Assembly: GCA_902520835.1 (NCBI GenBank)
Contig: CABYPD010000010.1
Coordinates: 1 to 44,819 of the forward strand
DNA length: 44,819 nucleotides
Direction of reading: 5' to 3'
Source: an uncultured Bacteroidota bacterium
GTDB taxonomy: Bacteria; Bacteroidota; Bacteroidia; Flavobacteriales; Flavobacteriaceae
In this document: positions 1-26,590 of the stretch, piece by piece
How positions within the stretch are numbered: position 1 is the stretch's first letter
Layout of the letters: the number at the start of each line of letters is the position of its first letter
Position numbers and translations under genes: made by a program
The notes under the pieces: model-generated
Seen by the model: the letters and a program-made list of their open reading frames with translations, nothing else
Database searches by the model: none
What the model was told of the DNA's origin: nothing

Positions 1-959
1 TTTTCATACATCTCTATCCATCTTTTTTTAAGTTGTTTATGAGTTAAAGATGAACTTTTAACTTCTAAATCTTTTAAATTAGTATCATAGTCTGTAATAT
101 AATTTCTAAAAGTATCTTCTTTATCATTTTCCAAAATATTAGCTAACTGAATATCCTCAAGCGGATAAAGATCAAAATATTTTTGGGGAGCTATAAGTGG
201 TGTGTGAGGTCTAACAAAACCAACAGCTAAAAAAAATGGTTCTTTATTGTCTGAACTAGCTAATTCACTGAGTTTATCCTCAGCCCACTGAGCATTGATC
301 TCATCTGGTGTTAAATCTCTGTCATCTTCACTATTGTATTTAAATTCTTTGTAACCCCTAGATCCCCCATATGCCCATGAAAGTTGTTCATTTATTTTCT
401 CAGAACTTCTAAGCTCTCTAAACGGTCCATATGATCCATCAATTTGACCAATTGAAGAAAAAGGTTCAGGAACATCAGGGTGAGCTACTCCCCTCTTACC
501 TTTTTTTCTTTCACCTTTATATACTACAGGTCCATAATCAGCTCTATGCTCAAATTGTGTCCATAGTTCAGGTGAATGATGATGTAAAATCTTTCCACTA
601 CCAACAACATTATATCCATTTTCTTTAAATTTCTCCATCATTGTTTTTGTATTTGCAAGCACTTCATTTTTAAGCCAAGATTCTTGCCAAAAATTTGAAG
701 AATTATGTGGATAAACACCCATGATCATACTAGCCCTTGAGGGACCACACATTGGGTCATTAGTGTAGGCTTTTAAGAAAGAAATACCAGAGTTTGCAAG
801 TTTTTTAATATTAGGGGTTTTCGCCTGAGGATGACCATTAAATATTTCAGGATAATCATTTAAATCATCCACCATTATTAAAACTATATTAGGACTAAGA
901 TTTTTTTCGCAAGAAATAATACATAGTGCTAAAAAAAAAGTAATTAACAATTTAAGCAT
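1..959 (-). CDS. S1-family sulfatase, iduronate-2-sulfatase-like, 3' end cut by window edge
   Basis: About 319 N-terminal residues are present; the C-terminus lies outside the window. The ATG at 959 opens a lipoprotein signal peptide with lipobox IISC (lipid-anchored Cys17). A metal-binding VDDLND motif follows near residues 30-35, then the sulfatase signature MCGPSR with Cys71, the residue normally converted to formylglycine. A later block, VGFVRPHTPLIAP, is typical of the iduronate-2-sulfatase-like (S1_7-type) group. It should hydrolyse a sulfate ester on a sugar in the periplasm or on a membrane face. It resembles the two sulfatases encoded at 23293-26366 and reads divergently from the beta-helix operon. 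The substrate cannot be read from the sequence. The family call is firm; the subfamily is inference. Confidence 0.9.
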   Translation of the reverse strand, partial: MLKLLITFFLALCIISCEKNLSPNIVLIMVDDLNDYPEIFNGHPQAKTPNIKKLANSGISFLKAYTNDPMCGPSRASMIMGVYPHNSSNFWQESWLKNEVLANTKTMMEKFKENGYNVVGSGKILHHHSPELWTQFEHRADYGPVVYKGERKKGKRGVAHPDVPEPFSSIGQIDGSYGPFRELRSSEKINEQLSWAYGGSRGYKEFKYNSEDDRDLTPDEINAQWAEDKLSELASSDNKEPFFLAVGFVRPHTPLIAPQKYFDLYPLEDIQLANILENDKEDTFRNYITDYDTNLKDLEVKSSSLTHKQLKKRWIEMYE

Positions 960-1101
960 CCTACTAATTAAATTCATTTACATAAATTTAGTGAACTGAC
1001 TTTAAATAAATTATCCATAGTTAAAAAATGAGGGCTTTAAGATAACTAATGAGAAAACTATTACTTTTAATTTCATAATATTTTAATTAGATTAGATTAT
1101 A

Positions 1102-2892
1102 ATGAAATTCAACAATATAATTTTAATAATATTTACAGTTTTATCTATAGCATGTTCATCTGACACTGGATCTGATAGCGGTGATTCAAATAGTAATGGA
1201 AACAACACTGGAGGAAACAATAATAATAATGGAGGAAACAATAGCGGTGGAAGTAGTAGTTCGGGTGAAACTACTGATCCTAACGATTTTTCCTCAACTA
1301 CCTCACCAGGAAACACAACCTATTATATAAGTTTTTCAAATGGAAATGACAGTAATGACGGTAAAAGTGAAGATAAACCATTTAAAAATCTTGGTAAAAT
1401 AAATAGTATTACATATAAAGCTGGAGACAAGATAATGTTCAAAAGTGGAGATACATGGAGAGGTTATTTCAAACTTTTAGGTTCTGGTGATAATTCTAAT
1501 AAAATTGAGATAAGTAATTACGGAACTGGTACGAAGCCTAAAATTGATGGAAATGGCTATCAGGCGAGTATTTTTTTAGAGAATGTAGAAAATATAATTA
1601 TAGATGGTTTACAATTAACGAATCAAGCATCACATAAATTATCAAATGGAGAAACAAAATTAATGAATGGTTCTGAAAGATCTGGTGAGGATGAAAGATA
1701 CGGCTTACTTGTTTTAAGGTATGGTGATGGAAGAAATATTTCTAATATTTCTATTAAAAACTTAATTATTTCAGATATATATCCAACACCATCTGACAAT
1801 TCTAAAAAGCATCAAGGTTATGGAATTAGGTTTGAATCATACAATAATTCACAGTCACAGATAAATTATTATGATAATATTGAAATCGATGATGTAGAGA
1901 TTTCACTAACTGGCCATTATGGGGTTCATATTGTTAATAGGATGTCACCTGCCAATGAAGATTTTTATCATAGAAATATAAAAATTACCAATTCAAAATT
2001 TACAAATACTGGTGGTTCGGGGATAGTTTTAGCTAGGTGTAAAGATGTATTGGTTGAAAACTCTCACTTTAACGGCACAGGAGCTAGCACAGACAGTAGA
2101 ATGTGGAATAGAGGAAGTGGTATGTGGACTTACACATGTAATGATACTACAATACAAAATAATATTTTTGAAAATGCTTATGGCCCACAAGATTCATTTG
2201 GAGCACACATTGACTGGGGATGTAAAAGAGTTGTTATTCAATATAATTTGAGTAAAAATAATTTTGGTGGTTTTGGAGAAATTTTAGGTGAAAATGAGAT
2301 GTGTGGATATAGGTACAATATAAGTATTGGAGATGGGACTAGAACTGGTCAACACAAAGGTTTAATTTTTTGGGTCTCTGATTTTGCAGGAACAAATAGA
2401 AGAAAAGCTTCAAAGAATAATTTTTATTATAATAATACAGTTTTTGTGCCAAGTATTAACTCAGTGAATAATAGTCCAATGGATCATTTAGGCATTTTAT
2501 TCAGAGAAATGTCAGAAGAAACATTTGTGTACAACAATCTTCTTTACATAAGCGACCAAGCTAAGGTTACATTTGAAATAAGAAATGAATCTGAGTACAA
2601 TAAATTTAAAAATAATCTTTATTATGGAACTGTCGATATTAACTCAGCTTACGATTTCAAACATGATTCCAGTGAAATATTTAATACTGATCCTCTTTTG
2701 AATAATCCTGGGGGATCATCATCTAATGATTACAAATTAAAATCTGGAAGTCCAGCAATAAAAGCTGGGATAGTTATTAATGGAAGCTCAAATGTTAAGA
2801 ATTTTATACAGAATAATGGTGGAAAAGATTTTTTTGGAAACAACGTTTCGGATACCGAAAAACCAAATATAGGAGCTTACAATGGGAACTAG
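1102..2892 (+). CDS. Surface-type lipoprotein with right-handed parallel beta-helix fold (putative polysaccharide lyase or hydrolase)
   Basis: 596 residues. The lipobox SIAC gives Cys18. An Asp/Ser-rich start and a Gly/Asn/Ser low-complexity linker follow (about residues 19-70), of the kind that displays lipoproteins on the outer surface of Bacteroidota. The catalytic region begins with YYISFSNGNDSNDG, a common opening of pectate-lyase-like beta-helix enzymes, and continues with short Asn/Ile-rich coils. Its best-conserved block is NRGSGMWT, then GPQDSFGAHIDWGCK, then GGFGEILGEN, shared with the next gene. The likely role is attack on an extracellular polysaccharide, but no catalytic residues can be assigned with confidence; PL6-like lyases and beta-helix glycosidases are both possible. 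It is the first gene of the operon running to 8559 and overlaps the next gene by 11 bp. Confidence 0.8.
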   Translation: MKFNNIILIIFTVLSIACSSDTGSDSGDSNSNGNNTGGNNNNNGGNNSGGSSSSGETTDPNDFSSTTSPGNTTYYISFSNGNDSNDGKSEDKPFKNLGKINSITYKAGDKIMFKSGDTWRGYFKLLGSGDNSNKIEISNYGTGTKPKIDGNGYQASIFLENVENIIIDGLQLTNQASHKLSNGETKLMNGSERSGEDERYGLLVLRYGDGRNISNISIKNLIISDIYPTPSDNSKKHQGYGIRFESYNNSQSQINYYDNIEIDDVEISLTGHYGVHIVNRMSPANEDFYHRNIKITNSKFTNTGGSGIVLARCKDVLVENSHFNGTGASTDSRMWNRGSGMWTYTCNDTTIQNNIFENAYGPQDSFGAHIDWGCKRVVIQYNLSKNNFGGFGEILGENEMCGYRYNISIGDGTRTGQHKGLIFWVSDFAGTNRRKASKNNFYYNNTVFVPSINSVNNSPMDHLGILFREMSEETFVYNNLLYISDQAKVTFEIRNESEYNKFKNNLYYGTVDINSAYDFKHDSSEIFNTDPLLNNPGGSSSNDYKLKSGSPAIKAGIVINGSSNVKNFIQNNGGKDFFGNNVSDTEKPNIGAYNGN

Positions 2893-4504
2893 ATTTTTTA
2901 TTTTTTGTTTAATAATTTTTCTTGCTGGATGCCAAGTAAATAATAAATATTACTTTGATTCAGTAAATGGGAACGATAATAACTCAGGTACAATAAACTC
3001 ACCTTTCAAATCATTAAAAAAATTAAATCAAATTGATTTAAAAAATGAAAGTGAAATATACTTGGCAAATGGTTCAGTCTTCAATGGTTCAATTGGATTA
3101 AACAATAAAAAAAATATTATTATATCCAGTTACAAGAATAATAACTTTGAAAAAAAACCAATTATCAATGCTAAAGGAAATTTAGCGGGGATTTTAGTTG
3201 AAAATTCCTCCAATATTAATATTTCAAATATTCAAATTGAAGCTAACGGAGGAAATGAAAGTCACAATCCACATCAACTTTTAAAACAAGATCTTCGAGC
3301 TGGTATTCTATACATTGTGTCTGATGATAAAACTCATGATAATTTTATAATTAATGATGTAACTATTAAAGATATTTTTTTTAATAATGAAGGTTTCAAA
3401 AGAAATCCTAAAGAAGTTAGAAGTCCTAATGGAACACAAAGTTATGGTTGGGGAATACGTATATTAAACTTAAGTGATTCGGGTAATCTTGAGAATATAA
3501 CCATTAAAAACTCATTAATTGAAAATATATCTCATTCAGGTATTAGAGTAAAAGGTAAACTTGATAATAAATTTCAAAATGTTAAGGTTTTTAATAATAA
3601 ATTATTAAAAACAGGAGGTCCAGGAATGGTTTTTAATAGTACATATAATCTACACGCTTACGAAAATGATATAAATTTTTCAGGATCAAATGATGATTCA
3701 AGAAAATGGGGTCGTGGAAGTGGATTATGGACATGGGGAAGTACTCTTGGTTTAATTGAAAAAAATAAATTTCAAAATGCTAATGGTCCTGCTGATTCAG
3801 CTGGTTGCCATATTGATTTTAATTGTAAGGACATTATTGTACAATACAACTTGAGTAAAAATAATGCTGGTGGTTTTGTTGAAATTTTGGGAAATAATTA
3901 TAATTGTTCGTACAGGTATAATGTTAGTATTAACGATGGATACAGAGTTAAAGGCGAGGGAAATAACTTTCAAGAAGGTAAATCCTTTTGGCTTAGCGGA
4001 TTTGTTGGAAATGGCAATAAAAGACATGGACCATATAATAGTTATATTTATAATAATACTGTATTTGTAAATAAAGATATTGTATCAAAAATTGCCGTAG
4101 ACAAAAACTCAAAAGGTGTTTTGGTTGCTAATAATATTTTTTACTTTGAAGGTGAAACAGCAATGGTTTTGGGAGATCAATACAAGCCAGATAAAGGAGG
4201 GCCTGGAAATATAGAAAATGTTTTTTTTGAAAATAACTTATTTCTTAAAAATCACTGGCCAAAAGAAGTCCTAATTCAACCTAATAAGTCAATTATTGGG
4301 AATCCATTATTTAAAAATTTAGGTGGAGAATCAATTTCAGATTATTACCCCACAAATTATGATTTAATAAAAGACAAAGGGATCATTGTGAAAAATATTG
4401 AAAATGATACTATAGGAATTAGGATAGGTTTAAAACTAAATAAAGATATACTAGGAAATAAAATTACCAACATGCCAGATATTGGTGCAATTGAAATTAA
4501 TTAA
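2882..4504 (+). CDS. Second parallel beta-helix lipoprotein, paralogue of the preceding gene
   Basis: 540 residues with lipobox LAGC (Cys17), directly followed by the beta-helix opening YYFDSVNGNDNNSG. Unlike the preceding protein it has no low-complexity linker, so it may sit closer to the membrane or face the periplasm. It shares the conserved blocks RGSGLWTWGS, GPADSAGCHIDFNCK, QYNLSKNNAGGFVEILG and YRYNVSINDG, indicating an ancient duplication with a common active site. Its start overlaps the upstream gene by 11 bp and its stop directly abuts the aldehyde dehydrogenase start, so it is translationally coupled to both. A polysaccharide lyase or glycosidase function is inferred from the fold and context; the CAZy family is not assigned. 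Confidence 0.8.
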   Translation: MGTRFFIFCLIIFLAGCQVNNKYYFDSVNGNDNNSGTINSPFKSLKKLNQIDLKNESEIYLANGSVFNGSIGLNNKKNIIISSYKNNNFEKKPIINAKGNLAGILVENSSNINISNIQIEANGGNESHNPHQLLKQDLRAGILYIVSDDKTHDNFIINDVTIKDIFFNNEGFKRNPKEVRSPNGTQSYGWGIRILNLSDSGNLENITIKNSLIENISHSGIRVKGKLDNKFQNVKVFNNKLLKTGGPGMVFNSTYNLHAYENDINFSGSNDDSRKWGRGSGLWTWGSTLGLIEKNKFQNANGPADSAGCHIDFNCKDIIVQYNLSKNNAGGFVEILGNNYNCSYRYNVSINDGYRVKGEGNNFQEGKSFWLSGFVGNGNKRHGPYNSYIYNNTVFVNKDIVSKIAVDKNSKGVLVANNIFYFEGETAMVLGDQYKPDKGGPGNIENVFFENNLFLKNHWPKEVLIQPNKSIIGNPLFKNLGGESISDYYPTNYDLIKDKGIIVKNIENDTIGIRIGLKLNKDILGNKITNMPDIGAIEIN

Positions 4505-5944
4505 ATGAATTTCGGAAAATTAAAAATGTATGTCGGCGGTAAACTAATTGATTCAATTAGTAAATCCAAAAAAACAATATTTTGTCCTGCAAATAATCAA
4601 CCTATTGCAAATCTATCATGGGCTGAAAAAACAGATTCTGAAAATGCACTTAAAGCTGCACATATTGGTTTCAAAAATTGGTCTAAACTAAAACTTGATC
4701 AAAGAAAGAAGTGGATGGATAAGTTTAAAGAGGCTGTTATAAATAATGAAGAAATACTTAGAAAAGCTATAATATATGAAATGGGTAAAACCTATGAGGG
4801 ATCCAAAGAAGATATTGATTCGCTGATCAATAGCTTAGATTTCTACCCAGATGCAATGAAAAATTATTTTTCAGATTCAATTATTGAGGATAAAGAGAAA
4901 ACCCACAACCATACTTTAAAAAACTATCCTGTTGGTGTAGTTGTTGCATATTTAGCTTGGAATTTTCCACTATTAAACTTAGCTTTTAAAATCGGTCCAG
5001 CACTTGCTTCTGGATGTAGTATAATTATTAAACCATCAGAGGAATCACCTGTTTCAGCTTATTTAATTGGTAAAATATTGAATGATATAAATTTTCCTGC
5101 TGGTGTTGTAAACATAATTTGTGGAGAACCAGAAATAGTAGCTACTACTTTATCAAAAAGTAAAATACCAAGACTTATAACAATGATTGGTTCTACAGCA
5201 ACAGCAAAAAAAGTTTATGCGGATTCATCAACAAGTATTAAAAGACTAAGTATGGAATTAGGTGGTAATGCTCCATTTATTGTATTTGATGATGCTGATT
5301 TAGATGCAGCTATTGATTTGGCAATTGGAATTAAATTTGGAAATTCAGGTCAGATATGTGTTGCAGCAAATCGATTTTTTATACATGATAAAATTTATGA
5401 TACCTTTTTGAAATATTATTTAGAAAGAGTTAAAAAACTGAAGCTTGGATTTGGTGAAGATAGCAGCTCAGATATGGGCCCCTTGATAACTGTTAAATCA
5501 AGAGATAGAATTTTGGATTTGATTAGTGACTCTATTAAAAATGGGGCTAAATTAGAATATGGAGGTAAAATTCCAGAAAACTTTAGCGATGGAAATTGGC
5601 TTGAACCAACTGTAATTACTAACGTTAGTCAAGATATGAGGATTTTTAATGAAGAAATTTTTGGTCCTGTTGCATCTATAATTAAATTTAGTAATGATGA
5701 TGAAGTTCTAAAATTAGCTAATAGCACTGATTACGGTTTAGCATCATATATTTTTACAAATAACAAACAAAGAATAGACTTTTTTTCTGAAAATTTAAAT
5801 TTTGGTGAAGTACAAGTAAATGGAATTAAGTATGCTATTTATCTTCCCCACGGTGGGATAAAAGAAAGTGGAATTGGGCATGATTGCTCACATTTAGCTC
5901 TTTATGATTATTTAACAAAAAAACGGATAAGCGTAGCATTATAA
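4505..5944 (+). CDS. NAD(P)-dependent aldehyde dehydrogenase (succinate-semialdehyde / sugar-aldehyde type)
   Basis: 479 residues, the normal length for the aldehyde dehydrogenase superfamily. The cofactor-binding region has AWNFPLLNLAFKIGPAL and IIKPSEESP. The general base is Glu251 in MELGGNAP and the catalytic nucleophile is Cys285 in GQICVAANRFF; the C-terminal part carries EEIFGPV and GGIKESGIG. The family resembles GabD/lactaldehyde dehydrogenases. Placed between beta-helix lipoproteins and a keto-deoxy-sugar pathway, it probably oxidises a sugar-derived aldehyde. Candidates are 3,6-anhydrogalactose (as in agar and carrageenan catabolism), lactaldehyde (rhamnose catabolism) or alpha-ketoglutarate semialdehyde; the sequence alone does not decide. 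It is cytoplasmic with no signal peptide. The ATG immediately follows the upstream stop codon. Confidence 0.92.
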   Translation: MNFGKLKMYVGGKLIDSISKSKKTIFCPANNQPIANLSWAEKTDSENALKAAHIGFKNWSKLKLDQRKKWMDKFKEAVINNEEILRKAIIYEMGKTYEGSKEDIDSLINSLDFYPDAMKNYFSDSIIEDKEKTHNHTLKNYPVGVVVAYLAWNFPLLNLAFKIGPALASGCSIIIKPSEESPVSAYLIGKILNDINFPAGVVNIICGEPEIVATTLSKSKIPRLITMIGSTATAKKVYADSSTSIKRLSMELGGNAPFIVFDDADLDAAIDLAIGIKFGNSGQICVAANRFFIHDKIYDTFLKYYLERVKKLKLGFGEDSSSDMGPLITVKSRDRILDLISDSIKNGAKLEYGGKIPENFSDGNWLEPTVITNVSQDMRIFNEEIFGPVASIIKFSNDDEVLKLANSTDYGLASYIFTNNKQRIDFFSENLNFGEVQVNGIKYAIYLPHGGIKESGIGHDCSHLALYDYLTKKRISVAL

Positions 5945-5962
5945 ATAATAAAACTTAGAATT

Positions 5963-6964
5963 ATGGAATTATTTTTACCCTTTATACTATTAATATTTGC
6001 AAGTTTTTTTCAAGGAACTTTCGGCTTGGGAATGAAATATATGAATCCATTATCATGGGAAGCGTGGTGGTTAGTTCATGTTACAATTGCAATGATTATT
6101 TTTCCAATGACATGGGCATTAATTGTAATGCCTGATTTATTTGACATTATCAGTTCATCTCCTAGTGATGCTATTTTTTATGCAATGTTATTAGGATTCC
6201 TGTGGGGAGTTGGTGGGATTATGTTTGGAGTAAGTGTTCCGTATATTGGACTTTCTTTAACAATGGGTATTGTTATGGGTTTGGCTGGATCAGCTGGAAG
6301 TTTGATTCCATTTTTTCAAATTGATGATGCTTTTTCTCAACCTGCATTTCCATACGTTATTGGTGGTATAATTATTTCTTTATTAGGTGTTTTTTTAACA
6401 GCAAAAGCAGGAATAGACAGAGATAAATTAACAAGCTCTGGTTCCAAGGGAAACAATATAACTAAAGGTATTTTAATTGCAGTCACGTGCGGTTTATTGT
6501 CATCTTTATTAAATGTTGGATTTGCTAATGCAGCGCCAATAGCGGCAACTGCTGAAGAATTTGGAGTTATTACTAGAAACTCAAGTTTAGCAGCTTGGGT
6601 TGTTGTTTTGTGGGGAGCATTCCTAATGAACCTATTGTATTGTTTATATCTTTTATTTAAAAATAATTCATGGGCTACGTTCTCATCACTTAATTCATCA
6701 AAAGCTTACAGGTGGTCAATAATTGCTGGTTTATGTTGGTTTGCTGCATTAGGTGTGTATGGCCAAGGCGCGGCATTACTAGGTGAAATTGGGCCAGTAA
6801 TTGGATGGCCAATTTTATTAGGACTATCACTAATAATTAGTAATTTTTGGGCATTTAGAGCAGGAGAATGGAAAAATGCCAAAAAACCGTTTAATACACT
6901 AATTTACGGTCTTATTATTTTAATTGGATCTGCAATAGTTTTAGGGCTAGGAAATTCTGTATAA
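5963..6964 (+). CDS. RhaT-family sugar permease (L-rhamnose/proton symporter-like)
   Basis: 333 residues, almost entirely hydrophobic, with about ten predicted membrane segments; length and N-terminal pattern (FFQGTFGLGMKYMNPLSWEAWW) fit the L-rhamnose-H+ transporter family of the drug/metabolite transporter superfamily. It sits in the inner membrane and should carry a monosaccharide or sugar acid with protons. It lies 18 bp after the aldehyde dehydrogenase and directly abuts the KDG kinase gene, so its cargo is probably the precursor used by these enzymes rather than necessarily rhamnose: no rhamnose isomerase, kinase, mutarotase or dehydrogenase is present in the window. The family call is firm; the substrate is open, so no gene symbol is given. 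Confidence 0.85.
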   Translation: MELFLPFILLIFASFFQGTFGLGMKYMNPLSWEAWWLVHVTIAMIIFPMTWALIVMPDLFDIISSSPSDAIFYAMLLGFLWGVGGIMFGVSVPYIGLSLTMGIVMGLAGSAGSLIPFFQIDDAFSQPAFPYVIGGIIISLLGVFLTAKAGIDRDKLTSSGSKGNNITKGILIAVTCGLLSSLLNVGFANAAPIAATAEEFGVITRNSSLAAWVVVLWGAFLMNLLYCLYLLFKNNSWATFSSLNSSKAYRWSIIAGLCWFAALGVYGQGAALLGEIGPVIGWPILLGLSLIISNFWAFRAGEWKNAKKPFNTLIYGLIILIGSAIVLGLGNSV

Positions 6965-7948
6965 ATGAGTAAAATTATTGGCTATGGCGAATTAATGCTA
7001 AGGTTAACTCCAATTTCTGAAAATTCCGATAAAAAAAATATAGTCAACTATTCAAGTACGTTCGCAGGGTGTGAAGCCAATTCTTTAATTTTTTTAGCTC
7101 GAAGAGGACATGATTGTGAATTCTTATCTGCACTCCCAAAAAACGAGTTAGGATTAATGGCAGAGAGCTATTTAACCTCAAATAATTTAAAATGTAATTT
7201 AAAATATGACGATAATAGATTAGGCACATTTTTTACAGAGTCTGGAGCTGATAATAATAGTTTTACAAAGATTTTATATGACAGAAAAAACAGTAGTTTT
7301 TCAAAGCATAATTTAAGTGAAGAACAAATTAATATTCTGATTAAGGGATCTTCTTTTTTAATTATCTCCGGAATTACACCTTCTCTTTCAAAAATATGCT
7401 ATGAAAATATTTTTAGACTTATTGAGATTGCAAGAAGTAATAATATAAAAATAGTTTACGATGTTAATTATAGAAAAGATTTATGGTCAATTGAGGAATG
7501 CAGAAATTTTAATTTAAAAATACTTTCAGAAGTTGATTATTTATTTACTAGCTCCGGCTCAATTAGAAAAATTCTTGATTTTAATGAAAATAAAAAAAGT
7601 GAATCATTCTTTTCAGATACTGAATCTTCTGTTAGATATTTATATGAAAAGTTTAATATTGAATTTATTGGTATGACCGTTAGGAATAATAAATCACTTA
7701 GTGGGTTTATATTTAATGATAAAAAATTTTATAGAGGTGAAATTTATGAATTAGATCAAATCGACAGAGTTGGTGCAGGTGATTCTTTTTTAGGTGCATG
7801 TCTACATGGAATAATCAATAAATGGAATATGAATAAAATAGTTTCATTTGCGACATCAACATTTGCAAGTTCACATACTATTTCTGGTGATTTAAATTAT
7901 TTAGATGATGATGAAATTGATAATTTCAAGAGAAAAAATTCGAATTAA
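6965..7948 (+). CDS. kdgK: 2-keto-3-deoxygluconate kinase (PfkB family)
   Basis: 327 residues, a typical PfkB-type carbohydrate kinase. The N-terminal GYGELMLRL strand and FAGCEANSL substrate loop are present. DVNYRKDLW in the middle is characteristic of 2-keto-3-deoxygluconate kinases. The C-terminal signature DRVGAGDSF carries the anion hole and catalytic base Asp273. It should phosphorylate 2-keto-3-deoxygluconate (or the galactonate epimer) with ATP to the 6-phospho compound, which the next gene cleaves. Its ATG directly follows the permease stop codon and the aldolase begins 2 bp after its own stop. The role is well supported; gluconate versus galactonate stereochemistry is not settled. 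Confidence 0.87.
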   Translation: MSKIIGYGELMLRLTPISENSDKKNIVNYSSTFAGCEANSLIFLARRGHDCEFLSALPKNELGLMAESYLTSNNLKCNLKYDDNRLGTFFTESGADNNSFTKILYDRKNSSFSKHNLSEEQINILIKGSSFLIISGITPSLSKICYENIFRLIEIARSNNIKIVYDVNYRKDLWSIEECRNFNLKILSEVDYLFTSSGSIRKILDFNENKKSESFFSDTESSVRYLYEKFNIEFIGMTVRNNKSLSGFIFNDKKFYRGEIYELDQIDRVGAGDSFLGACLHGIINKWNMNKIVSFATSTFASSHTISGDLNYLDDDEIDNFKRKNSN

Positions 7949-7950
7949 TT

Positions 7951-8559
7951 ATGCTCATTAATAATAAAATAATTGCAGTATTAACAATTAACGACTCAAC
8001 AAAGTCATTAGATCTCATAAAATGCTTGAAAAATGTTGGAATTTCAAACTTAGATATTAGATTAAGAACAAACGAATCTAAAAAAGCAATTGAAACAATT
8101 GTTAATTCTAATTATGATTTTAATATTGGGGTTGGAACAGTGGTTTCTACAGATGATTTAGCCTTTATTAATTCATTAAAAATTAAGTATGCGTTTTCCC
8201 CACATACTGATGAGAAAATTATAAGACTATCAAATAAATATAATATTGAATTCATTCCTGGGGTTTCTACTTTAAGTGATATTAATTCTGCTTTGGATTG
8301 TGGTTGTCAATATTTGAAGTTTTTTCCAGCAGAAAAATTAGGTGGTGTTAATTACCTGGATTCGATATTAAAACCTTTAAAAAAAAATGATTTAAAAATT
8401 ATAGCAATGGGCGGAATAAATGACGAAAATATTTCAGAATATTTAAGTCATGAAAATATTATTGGAATAGGTAGTAGCTGGATGGCTAATGAAATACTAG
8501 TGAATAACTCAAACTGGACTGAAATTGAGAGAAGGGCTAAATTATTATTAAATAAATAA
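7951..8559 (+). CDS. eda: 2-keto-3-deoxy-6-phosphogluconate aldolase (KDPG/KHG aldolase)
   Basis: 202 residues, the normal size of the class I KDPG/KHG aldolase TIM barrel. The phosphate- and substrate-binding motifs are IGVGTV (59-64), IPGVST (102-107) and GGIND near the C-terminus. Lys123 in YLKFFPAE is the Schiff-base lysine. The product pair should be pyruvate and glyceraldehyde 3-phosphate. An oddity: the catalytic Glu of E. coli Eda (Glu45, in VLEVTLRT) aligns by eye to Asp35 (NLDIRLRT), and the usual SPG turn reads SPH. It is the last gene of the operon begun at 1102. KDPG and KDPGal are both plausible substrates. Confidence 0.88.
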   Translation: MLINNKIIAVLTINDSTKSLDLIKCLKNVGISNLDIRLRTNESKKAIETIVNSNYDFNIGVGTVVSTDDLAFINSLKIKYAFSPHTDEKIIRLSNKYNIEFIPGVSTLSDINSALDCGCQYLKFFPAEKLGGVNYLDSILKPLKKNDLKIIAMGGINDENISEYLSHENIIGIGSSWMANEILVNNSNWTEIERRAKLLLNK

Positions 8560-8573
8560 TTACTTTCTTTAAA

Positions 8574-9275
8574 CTAAACTTTAGAATTAATAAAACGAAC
8601 TAACTTAACTATATCTTCTTCTTTTTTTAAATTAATTTTATTCTCTTTTCTAAAAGATTTATAAGTATCCTTTTTAACAAATTCAAGTTCTACAATTTTT
8701 TTATGGTTTTGTGGCAGTTTAATATATTTATTATCAATTAACAATAGATAAGTACTATCATCAACCCATTCTGGCCGTGCAGTTTTTCCATATCCTGAGT
8801 CTGCTACAGTTCTTCCAGCTTCTATGGGTTTTTTAAGTTTTTTTCTTGGATAAAAATATAAACTTATATTTTGAAGAATTATACATTCTCTTAAAATACC
8901 ATAATCTCCAAAAGTTTTATTTTGAAATTTGTGAAGCCTGTAAGTTTTATTTTCAATTTCAACATAATCATTTTCATCAACGACAATTTCGAATATCTGT
9001 CCACTTTTATTTAGAGTTTGAAACTTTTGAGCATAAGCATCGATTCTAATTCTTCCACTAAAACTATTAAGAGAATCTAAAATTACAGTTCCATTAGAAA
9101 ATTTTTCATTTAAATAGGGAGATCCTTCAATATTAATATCGTACAAACTTAACTTCTGTAACCAAGTGTGATTAGTAGCATTGAATCTATCCATGATTGG
9201 ATCCTGCGAAAAAACTTGATAGAAAGATAAATTCATTAATAGAGCAAAAAAATATGTTTTAATTTTAATTGTCAT
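8574..9275 (-). CDS. Secreted protein of unknown function
   Basis: 233 residues. The N-terminus is a signal peptide ending around FYQVFSQ, so the mature protein is periplasmic or exported. The rest is mixed alpha/beta with many Lys and Tyr and no recognised catalytic motif: central stretches such as NGTVILDSLNSFSG and VEIENKTYRLHKF look like beta strands, and the C-terminus is a charged helix. I do not recognise a family. An internal Met14 gives a shorter, less complete signal peptide, so the ATG at 9275 is preferred. It converges with the aldolase gene (14 bp between stops) and is divergent from the aquaporin gene with only 37 bp between them. Its position inside the locus does not prove a role in polysaccharide use. 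Confidence 0.7.
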   Translation of the reverse strand: MTIKIKTYFFALLMNLSFYQVFSQDPIMDRFNATNHTWLQKLSLYDINIEGSPYLNEKFSNGTVILDSLNSFSGRIRIDAYAQKFQTLNKSGQIFEIVVDENDYVEIENKTYRLHKFQNKTFGDYGILRECIILQNISLYFYPRKKLKKPIEAGRTVADSGYGKTARPEWVDDSTYLLLIDNKYIKLPQNHKKIVELEFVKKDTYKSFRKENKINLKKEEDIVKLVRFINSKV

Positions 9276-9312
9276 TACTTAAATTTATTAAAACTTTAAT
9301 TAAGAAAACATT

Positions 9313-9918
9313 ATGAAGAAATATATTTTAGAATTAATTGGTGCATTTTTTATTGTTTTAACAGTTGGACTGGGGTCTAACCCTCTAGCAGTAGGATTTA
9401 CATATGTGTCAATGATTTATATTGGTTTTAATATTTCAGGCGCACATTATAACCCAGTAATTTCTACGGTAATGTTTTTAAAGAAGAAAATATGTTTCAA
9501 AGATCTTTCATTCTATATAATATTTCAAATAATTGGTGCTTGCCTAGCTGCATTGGCAATATCATTAATAAGGTCAAACATGCAAGTTCAACCTGTAATG
9601 GCTGATTCAATATATACTGTTCTTTTTATGGAATCAATTTTTACATTTTTTATTATCCTTGCGTATTTAAGTATTAGTGATGAAAATGTAAAAAATCCGT
9701 TCTATGGATTTGTAGTTGGGTTACCACTGATTGTAGGTGTTTTTTCAGCTGCTCCTGTTTCAGGTGCAATTTTCAACCCAGTTGTTTCAATAGGACCTTC
9801 CGTTATTGATATAATCACAGGCGAGGGAGTATCACAATACTTTTTATGGTATTATATTATCGGACCTCTATTTGGTGGATTTCTAGCTTTTCTATTAAAT
9901 AAATATATTTCAAAATAA
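9313..9918 (+). CDS. Aquaporin-family (MIP) channel with NPV/NPV motifs
   Basis: 201 residues, short for the family (usually about 220-280), with six predicted membrane segments and the two half-helix motifs expected of an aquaporin. The first motif reads NPV (residues 47-49, after SGAHY) and the second NPV (155-157, after VSGAIF), both in place of NPA. The residue after the second motif, commonly the Arg of the selectivity filter, is Val158. The conserved Glu residues of segments 1 and 4 are present (Glu7; the ME of MESIFTFF). It should be an inner-membrane channel for water or a small uncharged solute; the altered filter suggests something other than classic strict water selectivity. It lies next to the polysaccharide locus, but a link to it is only inference. 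Confidence 0.82.
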   Translation: MKKYILELIGAFFIVLTVGLGSNPLAVGFTYVSMIYIGFNISGAHYNPVISTVMFLKKKICFKDLSFYIIFQIIGACLAALAISLIRSNMQVQPVMADSIYTVLFMESIFTFFIILAYLSISDENVKNPFYGFVVGLPLIVGVFSAAPVSGAIFNPVVSIGPSVIDIITGEGVSQYFLWYYIIGPLFGGFLAFLLNKYISK

Positions 9919-9945
9919 AAAAGGACCCAAAATGGATCCTTTTTT
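9917..9945. terminator. Bidirectional rho-independent terminator between the aquaporin gene and susD
   Basis: AAAAAAGGACCC, loop AAAAT, then GGATCCTTTTTT: a 12-bp stem with one C-A mismatch, A-rich on one side and T-rich on the other, so it can work for both converging genes. It overlaps the aquaporin stop codon (9916-9918). Confidence 0.8.
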
Positions 9946-9967
9946 AAAATCGAATATTTAGAAGGTA

Positions 9968-11704
9968 TTAGTAACCAGGATTTTCTACTAGGTTAGGATT
10001 TTGAGAAATCCTTCCAGTTCCAAATGGTGACCAATACATTTTTTCTGTGAATACAGTATTCTGTGAAAAATTCCATTTCCACTTACTAGCTTTATACATT
10101 CCATCAGAAGCTCTTCTTGTCCACTTACTTCCTTGTTTTAAAGTAAAGTGCAACTCTTTTTCAGCATCTTTCCACGTTTTTAAATCCCAATATCTATGAT
10201 TTTCAGCATATAATTCAACAAATCTCTCGTTCTTAATTAGATCCAGAGTTAATGTTGTCTTCGCTGGCATTCCTGCTCTGGCTCTAAGAGTATTAATTAA
10301 TTCTTTAGCTCTATTTGGGAGATTTAATTCAAAAGCAGCTTCTGCACCATTTAAATACATTTCACCAGTTCTAAGAACTATATATGGTGTTTCATCTGTA
10401 CCAAATGGTGGAAACTCGATTGCAGGATCAATTCTTTTTTGAACCAATCTACCACCTCTATTTCTATTTCTCACAGGTGCTCTTTGCGGGGCAACATTTC
10501 CAGCTCTTCCTTTGACACCGGTTGCAGCATTACCAACAGTAGTGTTATGAAACCACACTTCTCTACCTTGAAATACCTCCTCGGGCGTGAATAAAGTTGC
10601 TAAGTACCTAGGATCTTTGGTATAAATAACCTCTTCTATATCAAACCATGTCTTATTGTTGAATTTGGAATGGTGCTTATTACCTGGACTTCCATCAACA
10701 TGTTCAAAACGAGCATCTGAAGCTAGGTACATATGCATGTTGGAACCCCATCCAGCTTTAAAGCCATCTGGCATAGCGTAACCACTCCAAGTATGAGTTT
10801 TTCCTAGTGCTAAATTGTATTCTTCAACAAAAATGTGCTCTGCAACATCTTTGTAAAATAGTTCAGAAAAATTATCAACTAAGTTAGCTCCTCCTTTATA
10901 AAGTGGATGTCTTCCACTGTCAATAACTGCACTTGCCGTAGCATGAGCCATTTGATAATAAGCTTGTGCACTGCCGGCAGGTATGGATGTTAAACCATTA
11001 CTGGATTGTGGATGATATTTTGCAATCCTTGCAGCGTATAAAGCAACTCTACTTTTTAAAGCTCTTGCAGCCATTGATGAAGCTTTCCCACTTAATGCTG
11101 AAGGTGGTAAATCAGCGATACCAGCGTCAAGATCTGATATAATTTGATCATAAGTATCCTTTAAAGTAGATCTTGGTATCATTAATTCCTCAACAGGGTC
11201 ATCAACCTGCTTTGGTTCTAACTCTAAAGGAACTCCACCGTATCTTTTTGCCATGTCAAAATACATCCAAGCTCTTAAAAACTTAGCTTCTGCAATTTGT
11301 TCCTTTACTGTTTGAGCATCAAATGATGCTTCGTTTAAAATTTCTATAATCTCATTGCAAGATCTAATGTTTCCATAATGCCATCTTGTTAGCATTGAAT
11401 GACCGCCAGAAGCAGTTGGAACAAATGTTGATGCTTTAATACCGTTTTGCCATGGAGCCATAAGTGTATATTCCCCACCAGCTACTGCATCAGTTAATCT
11501 ATCTTGATGCTTAATACCACCAACTTCGTTTGGTTCAAAAACAGCATTAGCATAAATTTTAGTTAAAAAAGCTTCTACCAATTTTGGGTCTTTTTTAACT
11601 GCTTCCTCAGAAATCATATCAGTTGGTTGTAGATCTAAATCTGCACATCCAATTAGTACGATCATCGGAAGAAATAGTACTAAAAATTTCTTTAAATATT
11701 TCAT
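9968..11704 (-). CDS. SusD/RagB-family glycan-binding outer-membrane lipoprotein
   Basis: 578 residues. Lipobox LIGC places the lipid-anchored Cys at residue 20. The sequence is a typical SusD/RagB protein: the early CADLDLQPTD start, an N-terminal TPR-like helical part including EAKFLRAWMYFDMAKRYGGVP, and a C-terminal part with the family block TGEMYLNGAEAAFELN, then NTLRARAGMP and ELYAENHRYWDLKTW. It forms the lid over the SusC barrel and binds oligosaccharide at the outer surface. It follows susC with a 25-bp gap in one transcription unit, and its end faces the aquaporin gene across a shared terminator. The particular glycan cannot be deduced. Confidence 0.96.
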   Translation of the reverse strand: MKYLKKFLVLFLPMIVLIGCADLDLQPTDMISEEAVKKDPKLVEAFLTKIYANAVFEPNEVGGIKHQDRLTDAVAGGEYTLMAPWQNGIKASTFVPTASGGHSMLTRWHYGNIRSCNEIIEILNEASFDAQTVKEQIAEAKFLRAWMYFDMAKRYGGVPLELEPKQVDDPVEELMIPRSTLKDTYDQIISDLDAGIADLPPSALSGKASSMAARALKSRVALYAARIAKYHPQSSNGLTSIPAGSAQAYYQMAHATASAVIDSGRHPLYKGGANLVDNFSELFYKDVAEHIFVEEYNLALGKTHTWSGYAMPDGFKAGWGSNMHMYLASDARFEHVDGSPGNKHHSKFNNKTWFDIEEVIYTKDPRYLATLFTPEEVFQGREVWFHNTTVGNAATGVKGRAGNVAPQRAPVRNRNRGGRLVQKRIDPAIEFPPFGTDETPYIVLRTGEMYLNGAEAAFELNLPNRAKELINTLRARAGMPAKTTLTLDLIKNERFVELYAENHRYWDLKTWKDAEKELHFTLKQGSKWTRRASDGMYKASKWKWNFSQNTVFTEKMYWSPFGTGRISQNPNLVENPGY

Positions 11705-18703: not shown

Positions 18704-20182
18704 ATGAAAAAATTTATTTATGTAGTTCTTTTGATAACATTTGGTTTACCATTTAATAAACAAACTTATTATAAACCAAATATAATTTTAATTGTTGCAG
18801 ATGATTTGGGCTGGACTGACATGTCTTACATGGGTTCAAATTATTATGAAACACCAAATATTGATAAACTATCTCAAAGTGGAATAACATTTTTTAATGG
18901 TTATGCTTCTTCAGCTAATTGTGCTCCAAGTCGAGCAACTATGATGTCTGGAAAATATCACCCTAGTCACGGAATATATACCGTGAGTCCATCTGCCAGA
19001 GGATTGGATATAACTAGAAAAATTATACCTGTAAAAAACACTGAGAATTTAGACCTTAATTTTTTTACAATAGCTGAAATGCTTAAAAGTGAAGGCTACA
19101 AAAACGCCCATGTAGGTAAATGGCATTTGGGTGAAAAAGGAAACTATCCAATGGATCAAGGTTTTGATTTTAATATTGGTGGATGGGAATCTGGAGGACC
19201 TAAAGGAGGTTACTTCTCGCCTTATTCGAATCCTAATTTGGAAAATGGTCCTAAAGGGGAATACCTTACAGACAGATTAACGAATGAAGCAATAAATTTT
19301 ATTGAGAACAACAGAGAAGAAAGGTTTTTTCTACACTTAGCATACTATTCAGTTCACACTCCAATACAATCAAAAAAAGAATATTCAAATTATTTTAAAA
19401 ATAAATCTTCAGATAAAAATCATAACAGACCTGATTACGCTGGAATGATTCGTTCTCTAGATGAAAATGTTGGAAAAGTTTTGACTAAAATTGAAGAATT
19501 AAATTTATCTGAAGATACTCTTATTATTTTTACTTCAGATAATGGAGGGATAAGATCCATTTCTAATCAGTATCCACTAAAAGCTGGAAAAGGTTCATAT
19601 TATGAAGGTGGAATTAGAGTTCCAATGATTTTTTCCTGGAAAGGAAAGCTAGAGGCTAATAAAAAATCATTTGAAAGAATAAGTAATATTGATTTTTATC
19701 CAACAATTAAAAAAATCATTGGTCATAAAAATAAAAACTTAAAACTAGACGGAGTAGACCTTAATCCAATTTTTAGAGGTAAAAAATTGAAAGAAAGGGC
19801 TTTATTTTTTCATTTTCCTGTTTACCTAGAAGCATACAATGTTCAAAAAGACGATGGTAAAGATCCTTTATTCAGAACCAGACCAGGATCTGTAATAATT
19901 AAAGGAGATTGGAAACTTCATCATTATTTTGAAGATGATCAATTAGAGTTATATAACCTTTCTAATGACATGAGTGAATCCAAAAATTTAAGCAAAATAA
20001 ATAAAGAAATTACAACAAGACTTTATAATGATCTAGACGATTGGAGAACATCAAATAATGCGCCAATTCCAAGTGAGAAAAACCCAAAATACAATCAAAA
20101 ATTTGTTGACAGCTTGATTGTTTTAATCAAAGAAAAAAAAATAAGCGGAAGATTAAACAAAAATTTACTTCCAGTAAACTAA
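18704..20182 (+). CDS. S1-family sulfatase (arylsulfatase A-like)
   Basis: 492 residues. The N-terminal hydrophobic stretch is a secretion signal but has no lipobox Cys, unlike the other six sulfatases here, so this is probably a soluble periplasmic enzyme. Metal ligands are in ADDLG (32-36) and the signature is NCAPSR with Cys73 as formylglycine site. VGKWHLGE, FTSDNGG and YEGGIRVP are normal arylsulfatase-A-like blocks; the overall pattern suggests the S1_16 group. It begins 5 bp after the preceding sulfatase, in the same unit as the sodium symporter. Its stop codon overlaps the stop of the convergent sulfatase by 4 bp. Family firm, subfamily tentative. Confidence 0.92.
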   Translation: MKKFIYVVLLITFGLPFNKQTYYKPNIILIVADDLGWTDMSYMGSNYYETPNIDKLSQSGITFFNGYASSANCAPSRATMMSGKYHPSHGIYTVSPSARGLDITRKIIPVKNTENLDLNFFTIAEMLKSEGYKNAHVGKWHLGEKGNYPMDQGFDFNIGGWESGGPKGGYFSPYSNPNLENGPKGEYLTDRLTNEAINFIENNREERFFLHLAYYSVHTPIQSKKEYSNYFKNKSSDKNHNRPDYAGMIRSLDENVGKVLTKIEELNLSEDTLIIFTSDNGGIRSISNQYPLKAGKGSYYEGGIRVPMIFSWKGKLEANKKSFERISNIDFYPTIKKIIGHKNKNLKLDGVDLNPIFRGKKLKERALFFHFPVYLEAYNVQKDDGKDPLFRTRPGSVIIKGDWKLHHYFEDDQLELYNLSNDMSESKNLSKINKEITTRLYNDLDDWRTSNNAPIPSEKNPKYNQKFVDSLIVLIKEKKISGRLNKNLLPVN

Positions 20183-21582
20183 TAAGTAAATCTATCCGGG
20201 TTTAATTTATTGTATTCATCATTTGCTATTAAACCTAAGAAGATTGGATCCATTAAGGTTTTAGACCATTTCTTAAATTTAATATTCAGACTATCATAAA
20301 TATTATTTTTTTCAGATTTAAGATTAGTTTGCTCTGAAATTTCTTTTTTCAGATTATACAATGCATCTGTTTCTTTATTTTTAATAAACTTAAAATCACC
20401 ATATCTAACAGCAGATCCTTCAATTCTTAGTTTAGGATCATTTTGCATGAAATTATTTCTCCAAAACAAAAACTCATGGGGATCATTATTGTTTTCACCC
20501 TTAAGATATGGTATAAGATTTACACCATGTAGTTCATTTTTAGACTTGATTTCAGGTGATGTTAATTCTTTAAGAGTTGCAAAGATATCAAGCGAAATTA
20601 TTGGACGATCAAAAATTTGCCCACCATTGATTTCCTTTGGCCATTGCATAGCAAAAGGAACCCTAATACCACCCTCAAATAAATTACCTTTTTTACCTCT
20701 TAATTCTCCATTATCAGAATCTCCTCTTAACCTTCCTCCGTTATCTGAAAGAAAATATATAATTGTATTATCATAAATTCCTTTTTCTTTTAACTTCGAA
20801 ATGATATCTCCTACTCCATCGTCAACAGCGCTAACCATTGCTGCATAAGTTTTTCTGGTTTTATCTTCAATATGGTCGTACCTGTCTAAATATTCTTTTG
20901 TAGCTTGAAGCGGACCATGAGGTGCATTGTATGCTAAGTAAATAAAAAATGGTTTGTCTGAATTTCTATCAATAAAATCAACACTTTCTCTTGAGAGTGC
21001 ATCTGTTAAATATTCTTTTTCTTCAATTCTTTCATCATTTCTTAGGAGTTTAGTTCTGTATGCTTGATTTTGACTTTTTACCTCTGTCTCATCGGCCAAT
21101 GTCCACTCTTCTGGAAAATATCTGTGACCCCCAGTTAAAAACCCAAAAAACTCATCAAAACCTCTTTTTAACGGTCTTAAACTTTCATGTGCCCCTAAAT
21201 GCCATTTGCCAACTGCAAAGGTTCTGTAATTAGACAATTTAAGCATGTCTGCCATTGTTTGTTCAGTTAGTGGTAAACCCATATTTGGATCCTTTGGTGT
21301 AAATAAAGGATTTTTACCAAAACCAAATGTATCTTGGTAACGACCAGTCATTAAACCCGCTCTACTTGGTCCACAAACTGGATATGAGACATAACCTTCA
21401 CTAAATAAAACACCATTATCAGCAATGCCGTCAATATTTGGAGTGAAAATCTCAGTTGAACCATTAAACCCAACATCATTATATCCCAAATCATCTGTCA
21501 AAATCAATATTACATTGGGGAGTTGATTATTGCTATTACAAGAAAAACAAAAAATCAGGAGAGTAAAAAATATTTTTTTCAT
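20179..21582 (-). CDS. S1-family sulfatase lipoprotein (S1_19-like)
   Basis: 467 residues. Lipobox CFSC gives Cys15. Metal ligands are in TDDLG (29-33); the signature is VCGPSR with Cys70 as formylglycine site. VGKWHLGAHESLRPLKRGFDEFFGFLTGG (blocks VGKWHLGA and LKRGFDEFFGFLTGG) and FEGGIRVPFAMQWP are typical of the group that includes carrageenan-active sulfatases of marine Flavobacteriia (S1_19), which is my tentative placement. It is transcribed alone on the minus strand, diverging from the sulfatase at 21765 across 182 bp. A perfect Bacteroidota -7 box lies upstream of it. The substrate remains inference. Confidence 0.92.
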   Translation of the reverse strand: MKKIFFTLLIFCFSCNSNNQLPNVILILTDDLGYNDVGFNGSTEIFTPNIDGIADNGVLFSEGYVSYPVCGPSRAGLMTGRYQDTFGFGKNPLFTPKDPNMGLPLTEQTMADMLKLSNYRTFAVGKWHLGAHESLRPLKRGFDEFFGFLTGGHRYFPEEWTLADETEVKSQNQAYRTKLLRNDERIEEKEYLTDALSRESVDFIDRNSDKPFFIYLAYNAPHGPLQATKEYLDRYDHIEDKTRKTYAAMVSAVDDGVGDIISKLKEKGIYDNTIIYFLSDNGGRLRGDSDNGELRGKKGNLFEGGIRVPFAMQWPKEINGGQIFDRPIISLDIFATLKELTSPEIKSKNELHGVNLIPYLKGENNNDPHEFLFWRNNFMQNDPKLRIEGSAVRYGDFKFIKNKETDALYNLKKEISEQTNLKSEKNNIYDSLNIKFKKWSKTLMDPIFLGLIANDEYNKLNPDRFTY

Positions 21583-26366: not shown

Positions 26367-26590
26367 TAAAAAAATATACAAATTTTTTATTGCTTTACTT
26401 AAAATATTTTAAAAACGATTACGTTCAAAATGATATTCAGAGTTGTTATGATTTGAAAATAAATAATCTTTTAAACTATAAAATTCATAATCGATAATGA
26501 ACTAAACTGACATAACAAAAAAAAAGAAGAGTATAATATCAACTAAAACATCTTTTCTTTTATTAATTTTACATTAATAATAACATAGCT

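Follow-up and report, generated by a model that had tools for sequence, protein, structure and literature searches.

The carrageenan polysaccharide utilisation locus (PUL) of Zobellia galactanivorans (ZGAL_3152-3157) contains a described pathway for 3,6-anhydro-D-galactose (D-AnG), a sugar from the carrageenans of red algae: ZGAL_3153-3156 are dauD, dauC, dauA and dauB, whose activities have been measured, and the neighbour of dauB, ZGAL_3157, is a DMT sugar/H+ symporter inducible by D-AnG (PMC5698469). The same source reports DagB from few species, so that it is not a core feature of the carrageenan PUL, and notes species with such a PUL and no known carrageenase. A DauA from Pseudoalteromonas is an active, NADP-dependent 3,6-anhydro-D-galactose dehydrogenase, and 6PNU and 6POP are among the structures of that work (PMC6923384); for 3,6-anhydro-L-galactose (L-AnG), 6J75 is tabulated as the PDB match of the dehydrogenase (PMC10163077). 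The locus compared here with these systems is a six-gene operon at positions 1102-8559 of contig CABYPD010000010.1 (assembly GCA_902520835.1), from an uncultured bacterium of the Flavobacteriaceae. This entire contig (C10, 44,819 nucleotides) is called the window; the assembly (genome G000) comprises 1.41 Mb in 39 contigs and is 84% complete. Homologies of the gene products indicate that the operon probably serves D-AnG catabolism in a small-genome marine flavobacterium, within a utilisation locus for a sulfated galactan of the carrageenan type.

The operon and its predicted products

The operon consists of six open reading frames (ORFs) on the plus strand, separated by -11, 0, 18, 0 and 2 bp, in exact agreement with an earlier note on this DNA; the view expressed there, that beta-helix proteins, an importer and a keto-deoxy-sugar pathway are combined in one coherent operon, is correct. 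Its features are:

1102-2892, plus strand: BH1, right-handed beta-helix protein, putative lipoprotein with a GH136-like fold, candidate glycosidase (Pfam, sequence, model)
2882-4504, plus strand: BH2, second beta-helix protein, putative lipoprotein of the same fold, with D305/D312 as the equivalent residue pair (Pfam, model)
4504-4505, plus strand: junction between BH2 and the dehydrogenase gene, 0 bp, the site of dauB in 17 of 80 named loci (locus comparison)
4505-5944, plus strand: DauA-type aldehyde dehydrogenase (ALDH), by homology a 3,6-anhydro-D-galactose dehydrogenase (Aldedh; structure-database sequence match)
5963-6964, plus strand: RhaT-like DMT sugar/H+ symporter, whose homologues occupy the genomic place of ZGAL_3157 (RhaT)
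6965-7948, plus strand: PfkB-family 2-keto-3-deoxy-gluconate/galactonate (KDG/KDGal) kinase, inferred to serve the DauC step (PfkB)
7951-8559, plus strand: KDPG/KHG-family aldolase, putatively in the DauD role (PF01081)

The ALDH scores 498.7 bits with 6PNU/6POP, 174 bits above the next solved ALDH (324.8 bits), and 313.6 bits with 6J75, which points to a DauA-type dehydrogenase. A search with the permease in 299 genomes of the family, a subset of a larger group, gave matches in 47 genomes; sixteen matches have 55% identity or more (the window's own included) and the remainder 35% or less. Its named near relatives are Cryomorphaceae bacterium MED-G14 (L115, 99%) and isolate AG-913-K11 (L116, 95%). 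A contig scan with the permease alignment provided the RhaT loci used below (labels L), the best 80 of 133 relatives, in which gene labels are best BLAST matches to a hand-made reference set; 75 of the 80 bear an ALDH, 53 of the window's type (type 2) and 22 of the Zobellia type. All five Zobellia loci fetched (L176, L180, L181, L188, L190) have the order RhaT-DauB-DauA-DauC-DauD-DagB, matching ZGAL_3157-3152.

The operon's order was compared with other genomes, as the earlier note had advised: the window's order, BH1-BH2-ALDH-RhaT, is found in 2 of the 80 loci (L115, L116), and in 17 others dauB is inserted, giving BH1-BH2-DauB-ALDH-RhaT. Given this recurrence across the named RhaT loci, the gene order is beyond chance. 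By homology, the window would encode the dehydrogenase, permease, kinase step and aldolase of the D-AnG route, dauB alone being absent.

In the proposed working, sulfatases, a nearby GH2 enzyme, BH1 and BH2 would dismantle the polysaccharide outside the cell or in the periplasm, and SusC and SusD would import oligosaccharides. The RhaT-like symporter would carry free D-AnG into the cytoplasm, where DauA would oxidise it to 3,6-anhydro-D-galactonate; DauB, from its gene some 1.6 kb to the left of the window, would isomerise this compound to 2-keto-3-deoxy-D-galactonate, from which the PfkB kinase, standing in for a DGOK-family DauC, and then the aldolase would produce pyruvate and glyceraldehyde-3-phosphate. 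The operon's own dauB would have been lost, and a dauB of another lineage, with an adjoining araC, would serve from the far side of the sulfatase gene. The gene order, the homologies and the place and foreign affinity of dauB are the observed parts of this scheme; the substrates, all assigned by homology, the cell location, the regulation and the first step are its conditional parts.

Position and origin of dauB

DauB is present in 73 of the 75 loci with an ALDH, and the two exceptions (L115, L140) are cut by a contig end. In G149, a genome of the same genus, and in G004 the operon reads BH1-BH2-[375/387 aa]-ALDH-RhaT-kinase-aldolase; the inserted gene belongs to the enolase superfamily (the L119 copy was scanned), and is related to the 14 other genes of this type compared, among them one on contig C17 of the window's genome, with 49-89% identity over all pairs. 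The sole match of PF13378 over the cut-off in the window's genome, C17:26344-27003, lies in a 389-aa ORF (C17:25897-27066); the other match, with 23.6 bits, is below. The C17 protein scores 479.4 bits with 5OLC, the Zobellia DauB, and 315.3 bits with the next structure, 4GGB (a margin of 164 bits), and it retains each of the site residues published for DauB (K, D, E, E, H, W). Thus, a putative DauB cycloisomerase is encoded in the same genome, outside the window.

The right end of C17 reads GH2(+), DauB(+), AraC(-), and L116 has the order GH2(+), DauB(+), AraC(-), sulfatase(-), BH1(+), BH2(+), ALDH(+) and onward. Because the two contig ends align about 720 bp apart on this sister genome (the last-but-one base of C17 at L116:3311, with 76% DNA identity, and base 1 of the window at L116:4031, with 78%), C17 and C10 are very probably neighbours, separated by some 720 bp in which the remainder of the left sulfatase gene would lie; a search of the assembly did not recover the C-terminal half of this sulfatase. 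dauB would then end about 1.6 kb (0.9 + 0.7 kb) left of the window, and the apparent gap in the pathway is due to a contig edge together with gene displacement.

The earlier note was right that the window lacks a bridging enzyme: reading its ORFs of at least 100 aa by eye, with no search, brought up no KduI/KduD, cycloisomerase or rhamnonate gene. The anhydrogalactonate cycloisomerase was on the note's list, and the DNA left of the window, where it had suggested looking, would hold the DauB of C17. Of its two options, a new route or a split one, the split stands, with dauB just outside the window; a new route is probably not needed, close relatives carrying dauB in the operon. An apparently unknown pathway becomes in this way a named one.

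Phylogenetic analysis revealed a different affinity for dauB and for the operon. Rows under length or identity limits were removed before tree collection; careful trees were made for DauB (41 of 75 collected rows) and ALDH (42 of 75), and quick trees for DauB (75 of 75), ALDH (42 of 75), RhaT (41 of 81), AraC (39 of 39) and the sulfatase (39 of 39). In the DauB tree, the C17 and L116 proteins join those of L184, L189 and G067 (support 100/98), which carry DauB-ALDH-HpcH aldolase-RhaT with AraC and a sulfatase on the other strand. The approximately unbiased (AU) test rejected their grouping with the 14 main in-operon DauBs (p 0.0030), with the three of L122/L124/L131 (p 0.0027) and with all 17 (p 0.0018), values that are somewhat optimistic, since the quick trees were already known when the groups were chosen. 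AraC shows the same grouping as DauB (quick tree, SH-aLRT 100). The test on the ALDH rejected a group with L184/L189/G067 (p 4.6e-7) and did not reject one with the ALDHs of BH operons (p 0.18), a grouping that the free tree does not recover as one clade; the permease groups with BH-operon rows (98, in a quick tree with some long branches) and the left sulfatase with L122/L124/L131 (95, quick tree). Only dauB and araC are foreign-looking, and the simplest account is a xenologous replacement, in which a foreign dauB-araC pair arrived beside the sulfatase gene and the operon's own dauB was lost. A foreign cassette replacing both dauA and dauB was also considered, the window ALDH being 66% identical to that of G067 and 62% to that of G149, and was rejected by the same result of the ALDH tree.

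The kinase and aldolase steps

The kinase of the window is of the PfkB family, different from the DGOK family of the two Zobellia-type DauC proteins scanned (L042:12953-13906, L176:13611-14564). It was therefore rejected as a DauC orthologue, together with the finding that none of the 23 DauC rows of Zobellia-type loci matched it at 1e-8. NCBIfam models for KDG/KDGal kinases match the window kinase under their cut-offs, and it may perform the same step as DauC, so that a PfkB kinase would act where a DGOK kinase serves in Zobellia-type loci. The aldolase matches all 22 Zobellia-type DauD rows at 24-33% identity, with PF01081 in both, consistent with a DauD-family enzyme.

Other loci differ at these steps. 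An HpcH/HpaI aldolase is found instead of the kinase and KDPG aldolase in L145, L157, L158, L173, L184, L189 and L193, that is in 7 of the 75 ALDH loci; kinase plus KDPG aldolase are present in 62, and both sets together in none. The HpcH loci probably cleave the keto-deoxy acid without a kinase. A non-phosphorylating SDR-type branch, considered for a 250-aa gene of some relatives, was rejected, as the L189 copy scanned is an HpcH/HpaI aldolase. In a BACL29 locus (L124:10001-21005), BH1-BH2-DauB-ALDH-RhaT is followed by no recognised kinase or aldolase.

The beta-helix pair

The first two genes are the less ordinary part of the locus. Pfam Beta_helix matches BH1 with 33.8 bits, above the cut-off of 25.9, and BH2 with 22.2 bits, below it. 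AlphaFold2 models (mean pLDDT 89.1 for BH1 with 29 rows, 76.9 for BH2 with 16 rows) were compared by Foldseek with the PDB: for both proteins the six best matches are GH136 lacto-N-biosidases, with E 3e-21 to 2e-16 for BH1 (next XylC, 8e-8) and 8e-15 to 5e-12 for BH2 (next a PL6 lyase, 5e-6). The superpositions are loose, with TM by query length of 0.51-0.72 (BH1) and 0.51-0.65 (BH2), root-mean-square deviation (rmsd) of 6.7-9.0 A and 18-22% identity. A sequence search with BH1 gave five chains at E <=0.01, all lacto-N-biosidases (one so named only in the fold search); the NCBIfam LnbX model gave 37.6 and 21.3 bits, far under its cut-off of 2500.

In the lacto-N-biosidase ErLnb136, D568 is the acid/base and D575 the nucleophile, and a second helical domain is required (PMC7335108). 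BH1 has two aspartates likewise 7 residues apart, D364 and D371, which are paired with these by spacing and not by a residue-level superposition. All 29 rows of BH1, BH2 and relatives contain both, and E393 and D411 are also invariant in them. Fold and invariant aspartate pair support a role as glycosidases, and the models place the predicted catalytic beta-helix domains of BH1 and BH2 closest to GH136. No GH136I partner domain was recognised among the six operon genes, in which no profile search for it was made. The N-termini contain lipobox-like motifs (LSIAC, LAGC), read by eye; some BH2 relatives (L122, L131, L142) have no cysteine at this place. Orthologues of BH1 at 64% identity or more occur in 4 of 397 genomes of the family, other matches being at most 37% apart from one short piece at 44%.

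Strong matches for GH127 (PF07944; dagA, alpha-1,3-(3,6-anhydro)-D-galactosidase) were found in all six Zobellia-type genomes compared and none was detected in the four BH-operon genomes examined (G000, G149, G332, G004); among seven other type-2 genomes, matches are strong in G246, G237 and G002, marginal in G050 and missing in G238, G067 and G361. DagB (GH129-like) follows a similar pattern, in 4 of the 6 Zobellia-type genomes, 0 of the 4 BH-operon genomes and 0 of the 7 others. These absences are suggestive only, because the BH-operon genomes are incomplete (84-87% for three, 93% for G004). BH1 and BH2 are candidate anhydrogalactan hydrolases of bacteria in which neither GH127 nor DagB was detected, and one may tentatively imagine, with the odds rather against it, a GH136-related group that attacks 3,6-anhydrogalactan and releases D-AnG, taking the place of those two enzymes in marine flavobacteria with small genomes. 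If this were true, sulfated galactan containing 3,6-anhydro-D-galactose would be a regular plankton food, not confined to the surroundings of red seaweeds. Open-licence PMC papers gave no prior description of GH136 with carrageenan, or of these taxa with anhydro-galactose; the main text of one on carrageenan PULs (PMC13168452, 2026) has no DauA, cycloisomerase or helix. Elsewhere in the genome, on contig C11, a GH16 gene adjoins a third beta-helix protein, a distant relative of BH1 (L086:8418-11082).

Sulfatases and the surrounding genes

The operon is flanked on the left by a sulfatase gene and on the right by SusD, SusC, a sodium:solute symporter and six further ORFs that read as sulfatases by eye, three of which were compared with solved structures:

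3-977, minus strand: S1-type sulfatase, cut by the contig end (325 of ~550 aa), divergent from the operon; full-length relatives at L116:3340-5007 and L085:6289-7941
9968-11704, minus strand: SusD-like lipoprotein, 75% identical to the SusD adjoining the DauB-ALDH-HpcH-RhaT cluster of L158
11730-14879, minus strand: SusC-like TonB-dependent transporter, with 68% identity to its counterpart at the L158 cluster
20179-21582, minus strand: sulfatase nearest S1_19 and carrageenan sulfatases (structure-database sequence scores)
21765-23285, plus strand: S1_15-like sulfatase (7OZC 610 bits; S1_15A/B chains 459/453 bits)

For the sulfatase at 20179-21582, the top seven solved matches range from 360 to 331 bits and include 6BIA (360), 9HH3, named 'family S1-19' (355), the iota-carrageenan sulfatase 6B0K (352) and the exo-4S-kappa enzyme 6PRM (336). 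The L158 cluster, whose SusC and SusD are so similar to those of the window, also has its own BH1-BH2 pair. Sulfatases and shared SusC/SusD favour a carrageenan-type sulfated galactan as the predicted substrate. Among the parts of a carrageenan PUL, an S1_19-type sulfatase, SusC/SusD and AraC are present; S1_7 (cgsB) and orthology to cgtAB/cgrA are not established. The whole genome of 1.4 Mb has 42 sulfatase matches, about 21 genes when grouped by place and frame, and is for its size a strong specialist of sulfated glycans. Elsewhere, sixteen of the 80 loci have GH2 and GH78-like genes next to those of the pathway, in 15 cases with the ALDH in view (L133, L135, L136, L138, L139, L141, L143, L147-L151, L153, L154, L156, L161), possibly as an alternative depolymerising module. 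Two adjoining ORFs match the left sulfatase in L121:533-2185 and in L124:451-2115, either as tandem copies or as one gene that is broken.

The beta-helix proteins are presumed to be exposed at the surface, and the operon to give a single transcript; the promoter and terminator scans give nothing firm on transcription units. The Bacteroidota-typical promoter motif has 4 matches in the window against 5.5 expected, none in the operon. Sigma-70 matches number 66, close to the 53.6 (sd 7.9) that chance would give, and terminator matches are slightly over chance (6 against 2.7, sd 1.7), with all four on the plus strand within coding sequence. Compared with L115, the operon proteins are 96-99% identical and those of the next three genes (8574-11704) only 71-86%; this abrupt change right of the operon is perhaps the trace of a recombination. 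The AG- isolates, AG-913-K11 included, are taken here to be single marine cells, and the small-genome marine flavobacteria with a BH operon are presumably open-ocean dwellers, judging from isolate names; the operon points to anhydrogalactose use by such bacteria.

Weighing the assignment

Several observations count against D-AnG from a carrageenan-type galactan. The ALDH is 50-53% identical to the 22 Zobellia-type rows, and type-2 ALDHs, the window's included, branch apart from two Zobellia-type rows in the quick tree; because of this, its substrate may possibly be a related but different anhydro-sugar. The kinase finds no counterpart among the DauC rows, and the likeness of the aldolase to DauD is low. 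The join of C17 and C10 derives from one sister genome, with DNA identities of 76-78%, and the AU p values lean to the optimistic side. Neither GH127 nor DagB, the known D-AnG-releasing enzymes, was found in the window's genome at its 84% completeness; two GH16 genes, at most candidate carrageenases, are present elsewhere in it. The left sulfatase (through its full-length L116 relative), the sulfatase at 24885-26381 and the C17 GH2, which weakly matches beta-glucuronidases and beta-galactosidases, have no specific carrageenan match.

The alternative that best survives, though an unlikely one, is a DauA-derived branch for another plankton sugar, an anhydro- or deoxy-aldose, with the cycloisomerase acting as a sugar-acid dehydratase. 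It would agree with the separate branch of the type-2 ALDHs, the different kinase family, the failure to detect GH127 in the four BH-operon genomes, the GH2 and GH78-like genes of 16 of the 80 loci and a GH95 in one type-2 locus. Conversely, the published DauB site residues are conserved, in 73 of 75 loci DauB is found alongside DauA and RhaT, a carrageenan-type sulfatase is nearby and three type-2 genomes do have strong GH127 matches.

Slightly less probable still is the same enzyme logic applied to L-AnG from agar or porphyran. Agar catabolism likewise has a dehydrogenase and a cycloisomerase, and the Vibrio L-enzymes are distant relatives of DauA and DauB, with 35% and 31% identity (PMC5698469); a PfkB-type KDG kinase would fit an L-route by way of KDG, for which two 5-dehydrogenases are tabulated (PMC10163077). 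No 5-dehydrogenase is present in the operon, the only place considered in this respect, and the S1_19-type sulfatase and the margins by which the ALDH prefers DauA to 6J75 and the C17 protein prefers DauB speak for D-AnG; the D form of the sugar indeed rests on these two affinities.

Routes, split or new, that lead from uronates (with KDG derived from alginate, pectin or ulvan) or from L-rhamnose, both options of the earlier note, would share a KDG kinase, a KDPG aldolase and a RhaT-family permease with the operon, and are very improbable, with KduI, KduD and rhamnonate enzymes looked for among the window's ORFs only, in view of the DauA and DauB affinities (at most 324.8 bits for any other solved ALDH), the carrageenan-type sulfatase, the distinct RhaT clade with its fall from 55% to 35% identity, and the D-AnG-induced symporter beside the Zobellia dauB. 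That the missing dauB is an artefact of a fragmented assembly, the true operon holding it between BH2 and ALDH, can practically be dismissed, since MED-G14 and AG-913-K11 share the BH2-ALDH junction (0 and 2 bp) and in the latter the sulfatase gene lies between dauB and the operon.

Comparison with known systems

Thus, the assignment to D-AnG describes a known pathway in a varied form, with a displaced foreign dauB, a PfkB kinase, a GH136-like pair in the operon and no detected GH127 or DagB; the route itself is probably not new. As central metabolism the locus is ordinary, and its interest lies in part in the beta-helix pair. With the Zobellia galactanivorans PUL it shares a DMT/RhaT symporter, a DauA and, for equivalent predicted steps, a kinase and an aldolase of the KDPG family; dauB is in the same genome, with an AraC gene near it. 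It differs from that PUL in the sequence of DauA, the kinase family (PfkB, not DGOK), the gene order, the BH1-BH2 pair within the operon, the place of dauB outside it and its foreign affinity, the failure to find GH127 and DagB, and the SusC/SusD genes, which are close in the window and remote in Zobellia. The Pseudoalteromonas carrageenan PUL provides, with 6PNU/6POP, the best solved relative of the dehydrogenase. GH136 lacto-N-biosidases (LnbX, ErLnb136) share with BH1 and BH2 the fold, as the six top matches of each, and an aspartate pair 7 residues apart; low identity and high rmsd, the lack of a recognised GH136I partner and the other substrates expected set them apart. Finally, the BH1-BH2-dauB-dauA-rhaT operons of related marine Bacteroidota (L117-L132, L144) agree with it in gene content and order, kinase and aldolase following rhaT in all of the 17 except L124; these operons keep dauB between BH2 and dauA, while the window, L115 and L116 do not.

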